A DNA stretch of 21,366 nt from a virus. The stretch spans positions 1 through 21,366 of the IMG/VR virus record IMGVR_UViG_3300042691_000838, one strand, 5' to 3'. Below, piece by piece: positions 3,021 through 21,366 of the stretch; position 1 is the stretch's first letter, and each line of letters starts with the position of its first letter. A program made the translations under genes and the position numbers. The notes beneath the pieces were generated by a model. It was given only the letters and a program-made list of their open reading frames with translations. It did no database searches and had not been told where the DNA came from.

Positions 3021-3869
3021 ATGTTTGGAATCTCCGCATTTGCCGAAGCGCCGTTCGCCTCGCTTGCGGGGCAGACAGTAGTTGTTGCTCTTACCGGCGT
3101 TCAGGCGTCTGGCGCGGTAGGAACAGTTGCGGTTGGCGCTAGGTCTAAAGCCCTAACAGGCGTAGCAGCTACGGGCGCAGTTGGCTCAGTTACGGAAACT
3201 AATAGCCCAACAGAAAACGGAGTAGTTGCTACAGGTGCAGTTGGTACAGTTGTTCAAAGTAGAACGGTTGCTCTCACAGGAGTTTCTGCTTCGGGCGCAG
3301 TTGGCACGGTTGTCCAAAGTAGGTCTAAAGCTCTTACCGGAGTTTCTGCTTCGGGCGCAGTTGGAAATCTTACCGAGACTAACAGCCCAACAGAAAACGG
3401 CGTAGTTGCCAATGGTTTTGTAGGCACGGTTGTCCAAAGTAGAACAGTTGCGTTGAATGGTGTAGCAGCCTCTGGCGCAGTTGGAAATGTTACCGAAACT
3501 AATAATCCAACTGAAAACGGTGTAGTAGCTACAGGCGCAGTAGGTTCCGTCACCCCAAGTCGGACTGTAGCGTTGACTGGTGTAGTAGCCTCTGGTGCGG
3601 TGGGTGATGTTACAGAAACAAATAATCCAACCGAAGATGGCGTAGTAGCTACCGGTAGTGTGGGGTCAGTGGGGTCAAGTCGGACGGTTGCAATAACCGG
3701 AGTACAAGCTAGTGGCCAAGTTGGTACAGTAAATTATTTTTATTGGACAACAATTGATGACAGCGGGACTCCAAACTGGCAAAATGTGAGCAACAGCGGG
3801 ACTCCAAACTGGCAAAATGTGAATAATGTACAAGCGCCAAATTGGGAAGATGTTGAAATGGTTGTGTAA
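3021..3869 (+). CDS. Virion protein made of eleven ~20-residue tandem repeats
   Basis: 282 aa. After a short N-terminal leader (MFGISAFAEAPFASLAG) the protein is eleven copies of a unit with the core GVxAxGAVGxV, about residues 26-237. Each unit is closed by one of two alternating linkers, VQSRTVALT-like or TETNSPTEN-like. The C-terminus carries three copies of a Trp motif, SGTPNWQNV, SGTPNWQNV and QAPNWEDV. Such regular Gly/Ala/Val repeats form repetitive beta structures (solenoid or stacked hairpins), and the 'PNWxxV' tail is often seen at the end of phage virion proteins. It probably forms an elongated tail or fibre component; this is inference. The small protein at 16756 carries two copies of the same core. 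Confidence 0.7.
   Translation: MFGISAFAEAPFASLAGQTVVVALTGVQASGAVGTVAVGARSKALTGVAATGAVGSVTETNSPTENGVVATGAVGTVVQSRTVALTGVSASGAVGTVVQSRSKALTGVSASGAVGNLTETNSPTENGVVANGFVGTVVQSRTVALNGVAASGAVGNVTETNNPTENGVVATGAVGSVTPSRTVALTGVVASGAVGDVTETNNPTEDGVVATGSVGSVGSSRTVAITGVQASGQVGTVNYFYWTTIDDSGTPNWQNVSNSGTPNWQNVNNVQAPNWEDVEMVV
3096..3731 (+). repeat. Eleven-unit, 60-bp tandem repeat with alternating A/B linkers
   Basis: Units start at 3096, 3159, 3219, 3279, 3339, 3399, 3459, 3519, 3579, 3639 and 3699: the first is 63 bp, the next nine are 60 bp, and the eleventh keeps only its core. The core GVxASGAVGxV is constant. The linker alternates between an Arg/Ala/Leu type (A) and an acidic Thr/Asn/Pro type (B) in the order A B A A B A B A B A, with one break. 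Bases differ mostly at third positions, so the protein repeat appears to be selected. Confidence 0.9.
3760..3822 (+). repeat. 30-bp exact direct repeat, period 33
   Basis: Bases 3760-3789 recur exactly at 3793-3822 and encode SGTPNWQNV twice in frame. A third, degenerate copy (QAPNWEDV) follows at about 3830-3856. The exact identity indicates a recent duplication or slippage event within the coding sequence. Confidence 0.9.
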
Positions 3870-14643: not shown

Positions 14644-16752
14644 ATGCCACTACAAAAATTCTTGTTTAAGCCGGGGGTTAACCGGGAGAACACACGCTAT
14701 ACCACCGAAGGCGGTTGGTATGAGGGCGACAAAATCCGTTTTCGTCAAGGCAACCCTGAAAAGATTGGCGGCTGGACGCAGTTTGCAGCAAACACATTTT
14801 TAGGCATCTGCCGTTCTTTATGGAATTGGATAACATTGGCTGGAGAAAATCTAGTTGGTGTCGGGACTAATTTACAGTTTTATATTCTAAATGGTGGTGT
14901 TTATTACGACGTCACACCAATTCGCAAAACAATCACCCTTACAAATCCGTTTACTGCAACCAATGGCTCAAGCGTTATAACAGTTGCCGAAGCAGATCAT
15001 GGATGTGTAGACGGCGATACTGTTATTTATAGTGGCAGTGGGATCGTGGGTCTTGGTGGCAACATCACTGCGGCTGTACTTACAAACACGTTCCAGATTA
15101 CGTTCCTTGATGATAATAGTTACACAATTACGGTATCCGCCACTGCTAACGCTACAGATGCTGCGGGATCTCCCGGTGGTGGTACGGTCGTAACACAATA
15201 CGAAGTTAATACAGGTAATTCTTACCAAGTACCTCTTGTTGGTTGGGGTGCTGGCCCTTGGGGTGGTGGCACATGGGGTAACGGAGAATCTACTACCACG
15301 TCTCTTTACATTTGGAATCAGCAAAACTTTGGTGAAGATTTAATATATGGCCCTCGTGGCCAAGGTATTTATTACTGGAATGCTAACGTAGGTTATGCAC
15401 CAATCCAAATAACAATTAGTATTGCGGCTCCCGGAGTTATTACATTACCCACTGGATTTTCGTTTCCTGATGGCACAACCATTACATTTACTTCGACTGG
15501 CGCATTACCTACTGGGTTAACGGTTGGTCAAGTTTATTTTGTGGTGAACTCAACAGGTGGCACATTCAATGTATCTACCACTATTGCGGGTACGCCAATC
15601 ACTACCTCTGGTGGTCAGTCTGGCACCCAACGCATATCTCAGCGTGGTATTGATCTGGCGGATGCGGGTGACGATGACACGCCCATCTTTCAAAACTTCC
15701 TTATTGTTTCAGATACCAGCCGTTTTGTGCTTGTATTCGGCACTAATGACTATGGTAGTACTGTTTTGAACCCAATGTTAATCCGTTGGTCAGACCAAGA
15801 AGATCCGTTTACATGGGCACCCCAAGCTACCAACCAAGCGGGTAGTTTGCAACTCTCCCACGGCTCATCAATTATTACAGCCGTTCAGTCTCGCCAAGAG
15901 ATTGTGGTGTTTACGGACTCGTCCATTTACTCGCTCCAGTATGTTGGCCCACCATTTGTTTGGACTGCTCAACTGATTGCTGACAACGTGTCTGTCGTTG
16001 GCCCTAATGCCGCTGTAATTGCATCAGGCGCGGTGTACTGGATGGGCGTAGACAAGTTCTACAAATACGATGGACGTGTACAAACGCTTAACTGTGACTT
16101 ACGCCGTTATATTTTTAGCGACTTTAATGCTCTACAAGCCCAACAAGTTTACGCTGGTACTAACGAAGGTTTTAATGAAATCTGGTGGTTCTATTGTTCT
16201 GCCAATTCAACTGCAATTGATAAGTACGTTATTTATAACTACGTTGAAAATGTGTGGAGCTATGGCAATATGGGTCGTACAGCTTGGTTAGATTCTGGTT
16301 TGTTACCCCTGCCTGTTGCCGCCACATACGATAATGAACTTGTACAACACGAAGACGGTGTAGATTCCTATGTATTAGGTGTGCAAACTGCGTTACCTGC
16401 GTACATCTCGTCTTCTGAATTTGACATTGGTGATGGCCACAACTTTGGTTATGTATGGCGCATATTGCCTGATTTAACTTTTGAAAACTCTTCGTCAACA
16501 CCTAGTGGCTCTGCCGCCGCAGTTGCTATGACTTTGTATCCGTTACAAAACTCTGGCTCTGGCACAGGGAATTCGGGCAGTGCAAGCATCACTAAAGGTG
16601 CAACATACAACATTACTGAGGAATATACGGGGCAGATTTACACCCGTGTTCGTGGCCGTCAGATGATATTTAAGATTGCCTCGGATCAGATTGGTACAAC
16701 ATGGCAGTTAGGTGCGCCTAGACTGGATATTAGAGCAGACGGTAGGAGATAA
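14644..16752 (+). CDS. Large nozzle/stabilisation-like virion protein with two inserted beta domains
   Basis: 702 aa. The N-terminus, MPLQKFLFKPGVNRENTRYT and then EGGWYEGDKIRFRQGNPEKI, is a hallmark of a large phage structural family placed near tail-nozzle genes. The C-terminus TWQLGAPRLDIRADGRR is likewise characteristic of it. Repeating strand blocks in between (IIVFTDSSIY-like, VGPNAAVIASGAVYWMGVDK, NEGFNEIWWFYC) suggest a propeller, as in P22 gp10/T7 gp12-type nozzle proteins; the analogy is structural, not sequence-proven. Residues ~96-184 and ~255-330 look like inserted beta domains, the second with the common GALPTGLTVGQVYFV and GGQSGTQRI motifs. The ribosome binding site is AGGACTG before ATG 14644. 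Confidence 0.65.
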   Translation: MPLQKFLFKPGVNRENTRYTTEGGWYEGDKIRFRQGNPEKIGGWTQFAANTFLGICRSLWNWITLAGENLVGVGTNLQFYILNGGVYYDVTPIRKTITLTNPFTATNGSSVITVAEADHGCVDGDTVIYSGSGIVGLGGNITAAVLTNTFQITFLDDNSYTITVSATANATDAAGSPGGGTVVTQYEVNTGNSYQVPLVGWGAGPWGGGTWGNGESTTTSLYIWNQQNFGEDLIYGPRGQGIYYWNANVGYAPIQITISIAAPGVITLPTGFSFPDGTTITFTSTGALPTGLTVGQVYFVVNSTGGTFNVSTTIAGTPITTSGGQSGTQRISQRGIDLADAGDDDTPIFQNFLIVSDTSRFVLVFGTNDYGSTVLNPMLIRWSDQEDPFTWAPQATNQAGSLQLSHGSSIITAVQSRQEIVVFTDSSIYSLQYVGPPFVWTAQLIADNVSVVGPNAAVIASGAVYWMGVDKFYKYDGRVQTLNCDLRRYIFSDFNALQAQQVYAGTNEGFNEIWWFYCSANSTAIDKYVIYNYVENVWSYGNMGRTAWLDSGLLPLPVAATYDNELVQHEDGVDSYVLGVQTALPAYISSSEFDIGDGHNFGYVWRILPDLTFENSSSTPSGSAAAVAMTLYPLQNSGSGTGNSGSASITKGATYNITEEYTGQIYTRVRGRQMIFKIASDQIGTTWQLGAPRLDIRADGRR

Positions 16753-16755
16753 CCT

Positions 16756-17148
16756 ATGACGATGCTCCAGAACCGGGCTTCCCCAAATATTCCGCAAGCC
16801 CCTGCGGAGTATGACCAAGCGTACATGAATGCGTTGAGTAACGTGATTCGGTTGTTTTTTAATAACATTAACACGGTACAACAACTTAACTTAGCAAGTT
16901 TGAATCTTGACTTACGTACACTGCCTACTGATGCCGATCTACCTAATCTACGTATTGGCGACGTGTATCGGGATACCCAAGATGGCTTACAGGCCACAAG
17001 CCAAATGCTTCGTATTAAAGTGCCAGTTGAATTGACTGGGGTTTCAGGTTTAGGGGCGGTTGGTAGTGTAGGGGCCGTTGGGGGCACAATTACTAAAAAT
17101 TTAACTGGTGTTTCTGGGTCTGGTGCAGTTGGCACAATGACCCCTTAG
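16756..17148 (+). CDS. Small virion-associated protein ending in two GVSGxGAVG repeats
   Basis: 130 aa. The N-terminal helix bundle region begins MTMLQNRASPNIPQAPAEYD and contains ALSNVIRLFFNNINTVQQLN and LPTDADLPNLRIGDVYRDT. This 'LPT.ADL..LR.GDVYRD' pattern is familiar from small proteins next to nozzle-type genes in environmental phages. The C-terminus carries two copies of the GVxxxGAVGxV core (17038-17070 and 17107-17139) seen eleven times in the 3021 protein. The gene starts three bases after the nozzle-like gene; GGTAGGAG gives a good ribosome binding site and ATG 16762 is an alternative start. A tail-tip or nozzle-linked role is inferred. Confidence 0.65.
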   Translation: MTMLQNRASPNIPQAPAEYDQAYMNALSNVIRLFFNNINTVQQLNLASLNLDLRTLPTDADLPNLRIGDVYRDTQDGLQATSQMLRIKVPVELTGVSGLGAVGSVGAVGGTITKNLTGVSGSGAVGTMTP

Positions 17149-17182: not shown

Positions 17183-18166
17183 ATGGGTACTGGAGTCGGT
17201 GAAGCGATGCTGCTTGGCGCGGCAATGGGTGGCGGCTCTGCCGCTATAACTGGTGGCGACCCTCTTAAAGGTGCCCTCCTTGGTGGTTTGACCGGCGGTG
17301 CTGGTGCGGGTATTAGCGGGGGTTTAGCCGGTGCGGCTGGTACAGAAGCGGCTTTGGCTACTGCGGGTACTGAGGCGGCTACAAATATTGCCGCTTCGGC
17401 GGCTCCTGCTGGTGGAGGTATTTCTTCTCTTTTGGGTGAAAATGCTGCACAAAATATTGCGGCTAACCCAAATTTGTTTCCGCCCGGTTTTGCTAACCCA
17501 AATACTGCAACGCTGTTGACGCCCTCTGGTACTTCTTACGCAATTCCATCAGCCACATCCAATGTTGTGCCACCTGCAACTGGTGGAACTTTTGGTGAAG
17601 GGATGGCAAAGTTTGCTAATAACCCAATGGCTTCTTTAAAGGCTAATCCTTTTACCGCCGCAGGTGCTGGTCTAGCTGGCGCTATTGGCGGACGAGAAGA
17701 AATGGAAAGGCCGGGAGAATACGATGGCCCCCTCAAGCGATTTAAGTTTAATCCTGAATCCTATCGACCTTCTTTCTTTGCCGCTGAAGGCGGTATTACT
17801 GATTTAGCCGCAGGTGGTTATGACCGTATGGTTGGTGAAGAACCTATGTATCCATCTAATATGGCTCGTGGTGGTATCTCTGATTTAGGTAGCTACTCAG
17901 ACTACGCACGTGGTGGTCGTATGCTCAAAGGCCCCGGTGATGGCATGTCTGACAGCATCCCTGCAAGTATTGCAGGCAAACGCCCTGCCCGCTTGGCTAC
18001 TGAAGAGTTTGTGGTTCCCGCTGATGTGGTCTCACACCTTGGTAATGGCTCTTCTGATGCAGGTGCTAAACAACTCTACGCCATGATGGACAGAGTTCGC
18101 AAAGCCCGCACGGGTCGTAAGTCTCAAGGCCGTGAGATTAGCCCCCAACAATACATGGCCGCATAA
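17183..18166 (+). CDS. Glycine-zipper N-terminus plus conserved C-terminal virion protein
   Basis: 327 aa. The first ~52 residues are a Gly/Ala-rich hydrophobic stretch with many GxxxG spacings (GEAMLLGAAMGGGSAA, GALLGGLTGGAGAGISGGLA), typical of segments that pack in membranes. The middle is Pro/Asn/Ala-rich. The C-terminus has AEGGITDL (201-208), ARGGISDL (228-235) and ARGGRML (242-248) followed by a block, PGDGMSDSIPASIAGKRPAR to LYAMMDRVRKARTG (251-310). I recognise that block as a recurrent segment of large phage structural proteins in metagenomes. An ejection or internal virion protein able to insert in the host envelope is inferred. The ribosome binding site is GAGGAG. Confidence 0.6.
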   Translation: MGTGVGEAMLLGAAMGGGSAAITGGDPLKGALLGGLTGGAGAGISGGLAGAAGTEAALATAGTEAATNIAASAAPAGGGISSLLGENAAQNIAANPNLFPPGFANPNTATLLTPSGTSYAIPSATSNVVPPATGGTFGEGMAKFANNPMASLKANPFTAAGAGLAGAIGGREEMERPGEYDGPLKRFKFNPESYRPSFFAAEGGITDLAAGGYDRMVGEEPMYPSNMARGGISDLGSYSDYARGGRMLKGPGDGMSDSIPASIAGKRPARLATEEFVVPADVVSHLGNGSSDAGAKQLYAMMDRVRKARTGRKSQGREISPQQYMAA

Positions 18167-18175
18167 GGAACCACT

Positions 18176-18274
18176 ATGAGCTACTCTCGTCAAAAACTTT
18201 ATGCCTTTGGTGAACCACTTGGGGAATCGGTAACTCGCAAAGAAGGTGGCCGCATTATTTATGGCGGTGGTGGT
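18176..18274 (+). repeat. 33-codon N-terminal tag, copy 1
   Basis: This segment encodes the N-terminal 33 residues of the 18176 protein and matches 19647-19745 in the next-but-one gene: 30 of 33 residues are identical and differences in the DNA are mostly silent. It marks a duplicated leader-like module. Confidence 0.85.
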
Positions 18275-19222
18275 AGTGGTGGCGGTGGCGGCCCTGCCGC
18301 ACCAGAGGCTCCTCCCCCTCCTCCTGACCGCATGGCTTCTGCGGCTCCCCCACCTGTGTTTCAAACCTACGGAAGCGGCAATAGAACTGGTTCACTGGTA
18401 CAAGCTGGTGGAGGCATGCGTCCATCTACGTTGGATTACAGCAAGCCCATCTACGATCCTAACTACGCCGACAACATTACCGGCTATCAGCAGTCAAGCC
18501 AGTTTTATCAGCCTATTTATCAACCCCAGTACAACAACTATGCCAACCCATTAACGGCAGGTAATGTAGCAAATTACGGTACGAACCCCGGCCCTTCCTC
18601 GGGATATTTAGCTGCAACTGCACAAGGTGGTCAAGGTCTTGATAGTTATTATCAAGGTTTAAAGGCGTTTGCTGCACAGCAGAGTAGCCAACCTCGTGGT
18701 ATGGACTACACAACGTTTAACCCCGCACGTAAAGCATTAGGCGCAAATCAAGCTGATTTACAGCAAGCCTATGAGTACAACCCACAACAGCAACAAAAGA
18801 GGGAGTTTGGTGGTTTTGGTGGTATGGGTGGTAGTAATTGGATGTCCCAGATGCAAACCCCGTCCCAACAACCCGAACGGGGATCAATGCCTCAAACAGC
18901 ACGACCAACGGTAGACGGCGGCCCAGCCCCTGACTACGGTGCAATGATCCAACGCACTGCGCAAAATCAACAAGACTACGGTGGTATGGGTGGTTTTATG
19001 CCCCAAATGCAAACTCCGTTTAACCCTTACATGAATCAATATCAGTCTCCGTTTAGCTATCAACAACCAATGCAGCAACAAATGCAACAGCCCCAGCAGA
19101 TGCAGCCAAACTACGGCCCTAGCCAAGCTATTGTTGGCAGGTCTTCCCAAATGCGTGGCACCCCCAACGTGATGCGCCGTGCTGAAGGTGGTATTGCGTC
19201 TTTGATGGATGATGTTGAATGA
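18176..19222 (+). CDS. Tagged Gly/Gln/Pro-rich virion protein
   Basis: 348 aa. It starts with the 33-residue tag (MSYSRQKLYAFGEPLGESVT, then RKEGGRIIYGGGG), followed by a Gly-rich hinge and a Pro-rich stretch. The rest is low-complexity, rich in Gln, Tyr, Pro, Met and Asn: AISSQ-like QQSSQFYQPIYQPQYNNYA, and the near-repeats FGGMGGSNWMSQMQTP and GGMGGFMPQMQTP. A long Gln/Met tract precedes the C-terminal AEGGIASLMDDVE, which echoes the AxGGI motifs of the previous protein. I do not know a named family. Order and composition suggest an internal virion/ejection protein; the function is unproven. Its stop overlaps the GNAT gene (ATGA). Confidence 0.6.
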   Translation: MSYSRQKLYAFGEPLGESVTRKEGGRIIYGGGGSGGGGGPAAPEAPPPPPDRMASAAPPPVFQTYGSGNRTGSLVQAGGGMRPSTLDYSKPIYDPNYADNITGYQQSSQFYQPIYQPQYNNYANPLTAGNVANYGTNPGPSSGYLAATAQGGQGLDSYYQGLKAFAAQQSSQPRGMDYTTFNPARKALGANQADLQQAYEYNPQQQQKREFGGFGGMGGSNWMSQMQTPSQQPERGSMPQTARPTVDGGPAPDYGAMIQRTAQNQQDYGGMGGFMPQMQTPFNPYMNQYQSPFSYQQPMQQQMQQPQQMQPNYGPSQAIVGRSSQMRGTPNVMRRAEGGIASLMDDVE

Positions 19223-19650
19223 ACTTAACAATTCGTTCGGTAGATGTAAGCTACATCCATCAAATATGGCCTACAGTAAAGCCATACATTGAGGATGCGT
19301 TAAACAAAGGTCATGATTTTCCTGATTGGGCGTATTGTTACAACATAGACCATGTACAACAGTATGTAACTTCAGGGCAGTGGCTTTTGTTAGTTGCTAT
19401 TGACGAAGAAAAACAAATCCACGGTGCCTGCACTGTGTCTTTTATAAACTACCCACTTCATAGGGTAGCGTTTGTTACTTGCATTGGTGGTAAATTGATT
19501 TCTAACCAAGCTACTTTTGAGCAATTAAAACAGTTGCTTAAATCACATGGGGCAACGAAAATACAAGGTAGTGGCCGTGAAGCCATCGTGCGCTTGTGGA
19601 AACGTTACAACTTTGAACCGCGCAACACCCTAGTTGAGGTACTAATATGA
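19219..19650 (+). CDS. GNAT-fold acetyltransferase-like protein (T7 gp13-type)
   Basis: 143 aa. The order fits a GNAT domain: an N-terminal strand (NLTIRSVDV), a helix (YIHQIWPTVKPYIEDALNK), a strand pair (QWLLLVAIDEEKQIHGACTVSF), RVAFVTCIGGK, and a helix-strand end (FEQLKQLLKSHG, IVRLWKRYNFEPRNTLVEVLI). The usual acetyl-CoA pyrophosphate motif (Q/R-x-x-G-x-G/A) is not visible, so activity is doubtful. T7 gp13, an internal-protein assembly factor, has a GNAT-like fold in the family I recall as Phage_T7_Gp13; homology here is a guess by fold and place. It is coupled by ATGA overlaps to both tagged proteins. Confidence 0.65.
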   Translation: MNLTIRSVDVSYIHQIWPTVKPYIEDALNKGHDFPDWAYCYNIDHVQQYVTSGQWLLLVAIDEEKQIHGACTVSFINYPLHRVAFVTCIGGKLISNQATFEQLKQLLKSHGATKIQGSGREAIVRLWKRYNFEPRNTLVEVLI

Positions 19651-19745
19651 GCTATTCCCGTAGACAACTTTACGCCATGGGTGAACCCCTTGGTGAATCC
19701 GTAACCCGCAAAGAAGGTGGCCGCATCATTTATGGCGGCGGCGGT
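19647..19745 (+). repeat. 33-codon N-terminal tag, copy 2
   Basis: Second copy of the module at 18176-18274. It encodes MSYSRRQLYAMGEPLGESVT then RKEGGRIIYGGGG. The residue differences are Q6R, K7Q and F11M. Confidence 0.85.
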
Positions 19746-21140
19746 GGCGGCGGGCCTACAACAACCACGGTCAATCAATCCAATATCCCTGAGTACCTAC
19801 GCCCTCAAGTTGAGACGGTGCTTGGCGGGTCAATGCGGGAGTTGTTTAAAACCAAAGAAATCCCCGGGGTAGATGGCGCTCCAAGCACGTTTGAAATTAC
19901 AGGCACTAAACCTTTTACGCCTTACAGCGCCAACGTACAAGATTATGTAGCGGGCTTTAGCCCTCTGCAACAACAAGTCCAACAAAATGCGGCTAACTTG
20001 CAAGTGCCCGGCCAGTTTAATCAGGCTACGGGTTATGCCAACGCCGCCGGTCAAGGTGGGTTGGGAAGCGCACAAGCTGCTTACGGCTACGGCAATCAAG
20101 GCGCTCAATCTGGTCAACAAGGCCAACAGCTCGGTATTCAAGGCGGTCAGTACTACGGCAATATGGGTGCGGGGTATGGCGCACAAGCCGCTGACATTGG
20201 CCAGATGGGTCTTCGCGCTGAACAAACTGGCCAGCAAATTGGTAACCAAGCACAACAATACGCTAGTCAAGCCGCCGCCGCTGGGCAAAACTACGCTAAT
20301 CAAATGACTGATCCTAATGCGGTTCAGCAATACATGAACCCATATCAGTCTGCTGTGACTGATGTTCAAATACAGGGCGCACAACGCCAAGCTGATATTG
20401 CCCGTACACAACGTGGAGCGCAAGCCGCTCGTGCGGGTGCTTTTGGTGGTGCCCGTCAGGCTATTGAAAACGCTGAAGCTAATCGTGCGCTGGCCTCTCA
20501 GATGGATGCAATTCGTGCTCAAGGTCAGCAAACTGCTTACGATAAAGCAATTCAGTCTATGCAGTATGGCTCCAATCTTGGACTTCAAGGTCTTCAAGGA
20601 GCGCAACAGGGACTGGGTACTGCCTTGCAAGGCGGTCAGTTAGGTCTGTCTGGTATTGGCACTGCACTGCAAGGATTGCAAGGCGGTATGCAGGGTGCCG
20701 GTGTTGGTCTGCAAGGTGTGGATCGTCAACTGGCAGGTACTGCCCAAGGTATGCAGGGTGCTCAAGTTGGCCTCCAAGGTGTGTCTGGCGCTCAAGCAGG
20801 TTATGGTCTGGCTAATCAAGCGGCGTCTAATCTGGCCAATATTGGTACACAGCAACTGGCTGGGCAGACAGGCATCTTGGGTCTACAGAACCAGATCGGT
20901 GCACAGCAACAAGGTCAGCAACAGCAGTACATTAACCAAGCTATCCAGAACTATGGGCAAGCACAAGAAGCGCCAATGCAAGCGTACAACCAATACAACG
21001 CTCTGTTGCGTGGTTATGCACTGCCCGGAACAACCTCAACTCAATACCAAGCCGCTCCTCCACTTGTTAATCAGGTTGCAGGTTTGGGCACTGCCGGTAT
21101 TGGCGCATTAGCATTGAGCAACGCAGTGGGCAAACCATAA
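19647..21140 (+). CDS. Tagged internal/ejection-type virion protein with glycine-capped heptad array
   Basis: 497 aa. After the 33-residue tag comes a Thr-rich linker and a segment NIPEYLRPQVETVLGGSMRE, then PFTPYSANVQDYVAGFSPLQ, which I recognise from ejection-type proteins of environmental podoviruses. Residues ~135-220 are Gln/Gly/Ala-rich. At 241-300 a helical motif (IARTQRGAQAARAGAFGGAR, then QAIENAEANRALASQMDAIR) is the best conserved part of this family as I recall it. Residues 316-385 are ten consecutive heptads, each ending in Gly and usually with Leu or Met at position 5. The rest is helical and Gln-rich, ending in a Gly/Ala-rich hydrophobic segment. An internal core or envelope-channel protein, analogous to T7 gp14, is inferred from order and composition. 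Confidence 0.65.
   Translation: MSYSRRQLYAMGEPLGESVTRKEGGRIIYGGGGGGGPTTTTVNQSNIPEYLRPQVETVLGGSMRELFKTKEIPGVDGAPSTFEITGTKPFTPYSANVQDYVAGFSPLQQQVQQNAANLQVPGQFNQATGYANAAGQGGLGSAQAAYGYGNQGAQSGQQGQQLGIQGGQYYGNMGAGYGAQAADIGQMGLRAEQTGQQIGNQAQQYASQAAAAGQNYANQMTDPNAVQQYMNPYQSAVTDVQIQGAQRQADIARTQRGAQAARAGAFGGARQAIENAEANRALASQMDAIRAQGQQTAYDKAIQSMQYGSNLGLQGLQGAQQGLGTALQGGQLGLSGIGTALQGLQGGMQGAGVGLQGVDRQLAGTAQGMQGAQVGLQGVSGAQAGYGLANQAASNLANIGTQQLAGQTGILGLQNQIGAQQQGQQQQYINQAIQNYGQAQEAPMQAYNQYNALLRGYALPGTTSTQYQAAPPLVNQVAGLGTAGIGALALSNAVGKP
20592..20801 (+). repeat. Ten-unit 21-bp (heptad) degenerate tandem repeat
   Basis: The 70 codons divide into ten heptads with glycine always at position 7; six also carry LQG or MQG at positions 5-7 (LGTALQG, IGTALQG, LGGMQG-like, VGLQG twice, TAQGMQG). 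The bases are degenerate, so the repeat is clearest at protein level. Confidence 0.75.
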
Positions 21141-21149
21141 GGAATAATC

Positions 21150-21366
21150 ATGAGCCTCAATAGCCTACAAGATGATATGTCACGCCGTGCCGCTTCTATG
21201 GCGGCAATGGCTAAACGCGCCACTAATCCCCAACAGATTGAAGCCATACAGAAAAGTCTTGTGGCGGGTGTTCAGAGCGGTGCAATCCAGCCTTATGTTG
21301 GTATCCCGCTCATCCAAGAACTTACCAAGAAGATAACCGAAGTCAAAGCCAAAATGGCGCAAAGCA
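21150..21366 (+). CDS. Helical virion-region protein, N-terminal part (3' partial)
   Basis: At least 72 codons, open to the window end. It begins MSLNSLQDDMSRRAASMAAM, continues AKRATNPQQIEAIQKSLVAG and VQSGAIQPYVGIPLIQELTK, and is almost entirely predicted helix with Ala, Met and Gln. A start AAGGAATAATC supplies the ribosome binding site nine bases after the tagged ejection-type gene. I recognise the look of small helical proteins found after internal virion proteins in environmental phages, but no function. If the region follows a T7-like order, the next internal protein should start here or just beyond. Confidence 0.6.
   Translation, partial: MSLNSLQDDMSRRAASMAAMAKRATNPQQIEAIQKSLVAGVQSGAIQPYVGIPLIQELTKKITEVKAKMAQS

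Follow-up and report, generated by a model that had tools for sequence, protein, structure and literature searches.

The window, that is, the whole stretch of DNA that was analysed, is a complete linear IMG/VR contig of 21,366 bases. The features relevant to this study are listed below.

14644 to 16752, plus strand: P22 gp10-like 'stabilization' virion protein (PHROG 3287), the anchor of the module
16756 to 17148, plus strand: 130-aa protein in the position of P22 gp26
17183 to 18166, plus strand: A327 (327 aa), third module protein, with a glycine-rich and hydrophobic N-terminus
18176 to 19222, plus strand: P1, whole open reading frame, 348 aa
18176 to 18274, plus strand: P1 leader, type A, MSYSRQKLYAFGEPLGESVTRKEGGRIIYGGGG
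18275 to 19222 (stop codon 19220-19222), plus strand: P1 body, Pro/Gln/Gly-rich, unrelated to P2, C-terminus RRAEGGIASLMDDVE
19219 to 19650, plus strand: GNAT-fold protein, 143 aa, with an ATGA overlap with both P1 and P2
19647 to 21140, plus strand: P2, whole open reading frame, 497 aa
19647 to 19745, plus strand: P2 leader, type A, MSYSRRQLYAMGEPLGESVTRKEGGRIIYGGGG
19746 to 21140, plus strand: P2 body, predicted ejection protein
21150 to 21366, plus strand: first part of the following gene, truncated where the contig stops, in the position of P22 gp20

Relatives of the gene starting at 21150 encode proteins of about 450-660 aa. No family match was obtained for the 130-aa protein, and P1, the GNAT-fold protein, P2, and A327 had no match in Pfam. 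The repeat (A/L)TGV.(A/G).GAVG.V is common to two separate proteins of the window: it occurs many times in a 282-aa protein (3021-3869), and the 130-aa protein (16756-17148) has two copies at its C-terminus. A second short motif, (E/R/K)GG(I/R/T), recurs as AEGGITDL and ARGGISDL in A327, as AEGGIASL at the C-terminus of P1, as KEGGRI inside the leader, and as KKGGTV..GIANLGLYNA at the C-termini of P2 relatives.

The first-pass annotation had reported the same N-terminal tag on two unlike proteins, and this was borne out. The first 33 residues of P1 and P2, which lead to a glycine run, are identical at 30 positions. Past this run the two proteins diverge into unrelated bodies, P1 being proline/glutamine-rich and P2 continuing as PTTTTVNQSNIPEYLRP. 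When the window was searched with the P2 leader, the two leaders were the only matches (E values of 1.4e-19 and 8.9e-18); thus, the likeness is not due to chance. The two leaders differ in 13 of 33 codons, 10 of them silently and 3 not (pS 0.44, pN 0.06). The possibility that the window's P1 and P2 had lately undergone gene conversion was considered and rejected, because their leaders differ at 15 of 99 bases, compared with the 4-8 differences that separate the window's P2 leader from the P2 leaders of most near relatives. The ATGA overlaps were likewise found at both junctions, P1/GNAT and GNAT/P2.

A search of IMG/VR with P2 as the query retrieved 206 related stretches, of which 80, nearly all 35-82% identical, were kept. 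The gene order in nearly all relatives was the gp10-like gene, the small protein gene, A327, often P1, GNAT, P2, and a long gene, and the GNAT gene was directly 5' of P2 in nearly all. One relative, G017, is whole-length at 62,867 bases. It has genes for terminase, portal, and a Mu gpT-like coat protein, and past the long gene that follows P2 it encodes a 2010-aa protein in which DarB-like and LPD39 stretches were recognised. The 2010-aa protein located two genes past P2 in the genome of L060 (L227, 140-6169) had a DarB-like part (PHROG 10089, 3.8e-73) and LPD39, and this composition suggests an injected polyvalent protein. Related P2 bodies were also found in the cultured phages MinM2, DSL-LC04, CRP-901, and HTVC027P; CRP-901 has a Pfam-recognised GNAT gene directly before its P2 relative. 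When the phage collection was searched by tblastn with whole P2 and with leaders A and E on their own, no match was obtained.

The family PHROG 4287, annotated as 'DNA ejection protein', was matched by 7 of 45 P2 members (best E value, 4.8e-21), by the related proteins of MinM2, DSL-LC04, and CRP-901, by the leader-A proteins of L096, L103, L108, and L135, and by LUZ24 gp53, which is annotated as a phage particle protein. The window's own P2 had no direct PHROG match and is related to PHROG 4287 via its family. An ejection role for the tagged proteins is therefore well supported, if indirectly, and the proteins of the window would share this role as judged from the family matches. The AlphaFold model of P2 consisted of long helices, with a confidence (pLDDT 58) too poor for a structure search. 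The leader-A protein of L096 (2130-3509) is P2-like but carries at its C-terminus an intramolecular chaperone domain of the Peptidase_S74 family, an uncommon feature in a protein of the ejection type.

The leader was surveyed in the 80 relatives and by two pattern scans of IMG/VR. The leaders were of types A, B, C, E, and a few others, or were absent, and each type joins the conserved P2 body at the glycine run. Type A is the leader of the window, type B reads MIIPSK..GY..DG.R....GGGG, type E reads MRY.HF..LPE.AF.., and type C leaders are hydrophobic and aromatic, for example MNFLKYWKWFFFNQFFLYAGGG. Whether the leaders share an aromatic residue immediately ahead of the glycines was tested on 24 leader clusters; 10 had one, against 7.2 expected, which was not significant (P 0.14). 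The leader of the window was carried by at least four different bodies, almost always in one module. Type A was found on P2, on P1 (the window and L010), on A327 (L129), on proteins in the P1 position with unrelated bodies (L029, L037, and L039), and on the P2-like protein of L096. Type B was found on P1, P2, A327, and an unassigned body (L195). Most P1 relatives have a type B leader, and some have none; A327 relatives have type B (L014, L024, L034, and L064) or type A (L129). In L024, all three module proteins carry type B. Since the cargoes are several and different, the tag is not the N-terminus of one family passed on by ordinary descent, and its modular nature, as claimed earlier, is supported.

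In 27 virus records of 35-98 kb, the matches of the leader HMMs lay in the module; the sole exception was weak and partial (E 0.05). The leader A pattern had five matches in 84,980 cellular genomes, one of which was real. It lies in Limnohabitans sp. WS1, on an unrelated 393-aa protein (L228, 4905-6083) in a prophage-like region, with a gene for a terminase small subunit nearby, and is phage-derived in view of that neighbour. This match hints at Burkholderiales hosts. A search for relatives of the L228 and L195 bodies found none.

To follow the history of the leader, a tree was built from 127 P2 bodies after removal of the leader (348 columns). Leader type changed at least 31 times on this tree, and 49 changes were needed when the leader labels were shuffled; hence, leader type is clustered, yet far from inherited without a break. 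Type A alone accounted for 18 changes, 14 of which were forced by well-supported branches. The clearest swap involved L016 (no leader), L018 and L022 (type C), and L019 (type A), whose P2 proteins are 88-96% identical with unrelated leaders. Phages with near-identical bodies and unrelated leaders have gp10-like proteins that are 90-98% identical. Between L018/L022 and L019, the GNAT proteins are 96-97% identical, and the DNA is unrelated just from the GNAT stop codon to the first glycine codons. These results show that the leader is exchanged as a cassette among the module proteins of related phages. Mosaic exchange in ejection proteins is already known (PMC8954989, PMC10883804). A leader pool common to different ejection-module proteins is not mentioned in the ejection-protein literature covered, mainly openly readable papers, and leader swapping appears to be undescribed.

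The exchange boundaries coincide exactly with the gene start and with the glycine codons, and several leader types, or none, are tolerated. Both facts would also fit mobile N-terminal segments of little function, for which the ATGA junction and these codons are handy recombination points. This reading is very unlikely, given the selection on the peptide and the virtual restriction of the leaders to the module in the 27 virus records. The selection was estimated from 26 type A leaders that had been found via their bodies rather than via the leader pattern. Synonymous sites have diverged far and the peptide has been kept (pS 0.54, pN 0.10, ratio 0.18), and the ratio is lower than that in the body segments of the same genes (0.29-0.43); thus, the leader peptide is kept more strictly than its own protein. 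A larger set of type A leaders, found by pattern and biased at the pattern positions, agreed. Type A is therefore held by purifying selection, in support of the earlier claim that the peptide is under selection.

Leaderless P2 members open with MSGGGG or MGGGGG, exactly at the hinge. Because at most 10 sense codons precede their ATG, they encode no hidden upstream leader. Such members bear on the idea that the tag is a sorting signal, of which the modular, conserved leader stood and the capsid-packaging part was weakened. T4 removes its capsid-targeting sequence with a phage prohead protease. A leader of this kind would dock to the scaffold or core, bring its cargo into the procapsid, and be cut by the prohead protease. 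The presence of one leader on different virion-module proteins and the strong selection on the peptide are consistent with such targeting, and in T4 the N-terminal ten residues of internal proteins suffice alone for packaging (PMC8402733). However, leaderless homologues exist, and near-identical bodies bear unrelated leaders in phages whose gp10-like proteins are nearly the same. Peptidase_S78 (PF04586) was absent from 10 virus records, and a Pfam scan of 60 proteins of one whole-length genome found no prohead protease family, although a protease of an unfamiliar type may have escaped these searches. The comparable leader of P22 gp7 is not needed for procapsid binding, for which residues 21-154 suffice (PMC8402733). 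With leaders interchangeable or absent and no prohead protease found, T4-like targeting is less likely, and we regard it as an improbable account, though not a negligible one.

The GNAT fold of the gene between P1 and P2 was confirmed by structure prediction: the AlphaFold model had a mean pLDDT of 92, and its Foldseek matches in the PDB were mostly acetyltransferases (best E value, 1e-8). The acetyl-CoA binding motif [RQ]xxGx[GA] was not evident by eye in the consensus of the GNAT-gene family. Pairs of phages with the same leader showed a small excess of GNAT identity (0.07; reached in 0 of 2000 shuffles, phylogeny uncorrected). A link between GNAT and leader type was rejected, the excess being that expected when adjacent DNA moves together and clear counter-examples being present. 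The suggestion that the GNAT protein acts on the tag found no support: phages with type A and type C leaders have GNATs that are 96-97% identical, and type A leaders accompany GNATs 27-100% identical to that of the window. The gene is tied to the tag by adjacency alone.

The best explanation, to which we give about an even chance by analogy with P22, is that the tag is a swappable propeptide leader, like that of P22 gp7, on podovirus ejection (pilot) proteins, and that it is exchanged as a cassette. The host protease OpdA removes 20 residues from P22 gp7, and mature gp7 begins KGGKG (PMC8402733). The leader is swapped among at least three adjacent ejection-module proteins and would be present while a membrane-active protein is made and packaged, keeping it from acting too early. 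A host peptidase such as OpdA would then cut at the hinge, and the mature protein would begin at the glycines. Packaging and ejection of these proteins, as well as the cleavage, the cutting enzyme, and the restraint of early action, are what we infer from the comparison. Leaderless forms that start where mature gp7 starts are to be expected if the leader is a removable propeptide. A protease-processed propeptide was among the options of the first-pass annotation, and it is the one favoured here. Against the gp7-like reading, P22 that lacks the gp7 leader loses only modestly and still gives a burst about 60% of normal (PMC8402733), and the conservation of type A exceeds what a dispensable leader would seem to need.

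Alternatively, the leader may stay on and act at ejection, leading the protein out of the portal or into the outer membrane, and be swapped to escape exclusion by the host or a prophage. Some leaders are hydrophobic and aromatic (MNFLKYWKWFFFNQFFLYA), rapid exchange would suit an arms race, and SieA exclusion by prophages does target P22 DNA ejection; however, SieA escape maps to gp16 and gp20, with no evidence for gp7 involvement (PMC10883804). Type A, moreover, is highly conserved rather than diversifying. A role at ejection is quite improbable.

The propeptide reading treats gp7 as an analogue by place and build, and membership of its family is not claimed, since homology between P2 and gp7 was not demonstrated. 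In hhalign, P2 gave E values of 0.37 against a nine-sequence gp7 alignment and 0.023 against a single gp7, and PHROG 598 (P22 gp7) was absent from the P2 matches. When the module proteins were compared as profiles with those of P22, no convincing homology emerged; for the GNAT-fold protein and P22 gp14 (hhalign E 0.12), the equivalence is one of place alone. Within the gp7 family, the body is conserved and the leader varies: P22 and Sf6 share one, Proteus V3 and Sodalis phages have another, Louie has a third, and APSE-7 has none. Across the P22-like gp7 genes L083-L091, the N-terminal leader likewise differs or is missing and the body is kept. By eye only, the L025 leader (..LLPLSGYMGGGGDSGG) resembles the Proteus leader (..TLPMSGLMKGGGDGG). 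Given this variation, leader exchange may reach well-studied phages. A broader proposal, that tailed phages share a small mobile pool of leaders for any ejection-bound protein as a general swappable address or propeptide system, is tentative and in our judgement doubtful.

Little is understood of how phages hold their ejection proteins inactive, package them, and release them, and the leader of P22 gp7 has stood alone as a case without explanation. Nature here offers many combinations of leader and body, among them proteins that are almost the same yet differ in their leader or lack one, and these make the job of the leader directly testable. The leader may also mark unrecognised ejection proteins that are otherwise too diverged to find. 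Mosaic exchange of ejection proteins and one cleaved leader, that of P22, were known before; a leader pool across ejection-module proteins appears to be new.

Among known systems, the capsid-targeting sequence of T4 IPI-III is similar in being one short N-terminal peptide on several otherwise different virion proteins. It differs in that the present leaders can be swapped for one another or be missing, and no prohead protease such as T4 uses was found here. The PHROG 4287 family is matched by P2 relatives and several leader-A proteins, and its member LUZ24 gp53 has a leader of its own ending ..RAYKGGSKK, whereas the cultured members MinM2, DSL-LC04, and CRP-901 have none. The closest parallel is P22. 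The module order (gp10-like, ~130 aa, A327, P1, GNAT, P2, ~600 aa, and 2010 aa, the last member seen in one whole-length genome) parallels 10-26-14-7-20-16, with P2 placed after the equivalents of gp10, gp26, and gp14 and before those of gp20 and gp16. As in P22 and Sf6 gp7, a short N-terminal leader ends at a glycine-rich hinge, and, as in the gp7 family, it is exchanged or absent among homologues. The leader of P22 and Sf6 gp7 differs in sequence from type A, and, unlike in P22, up to three adjacent proteins here draw their leaders from one common pool.
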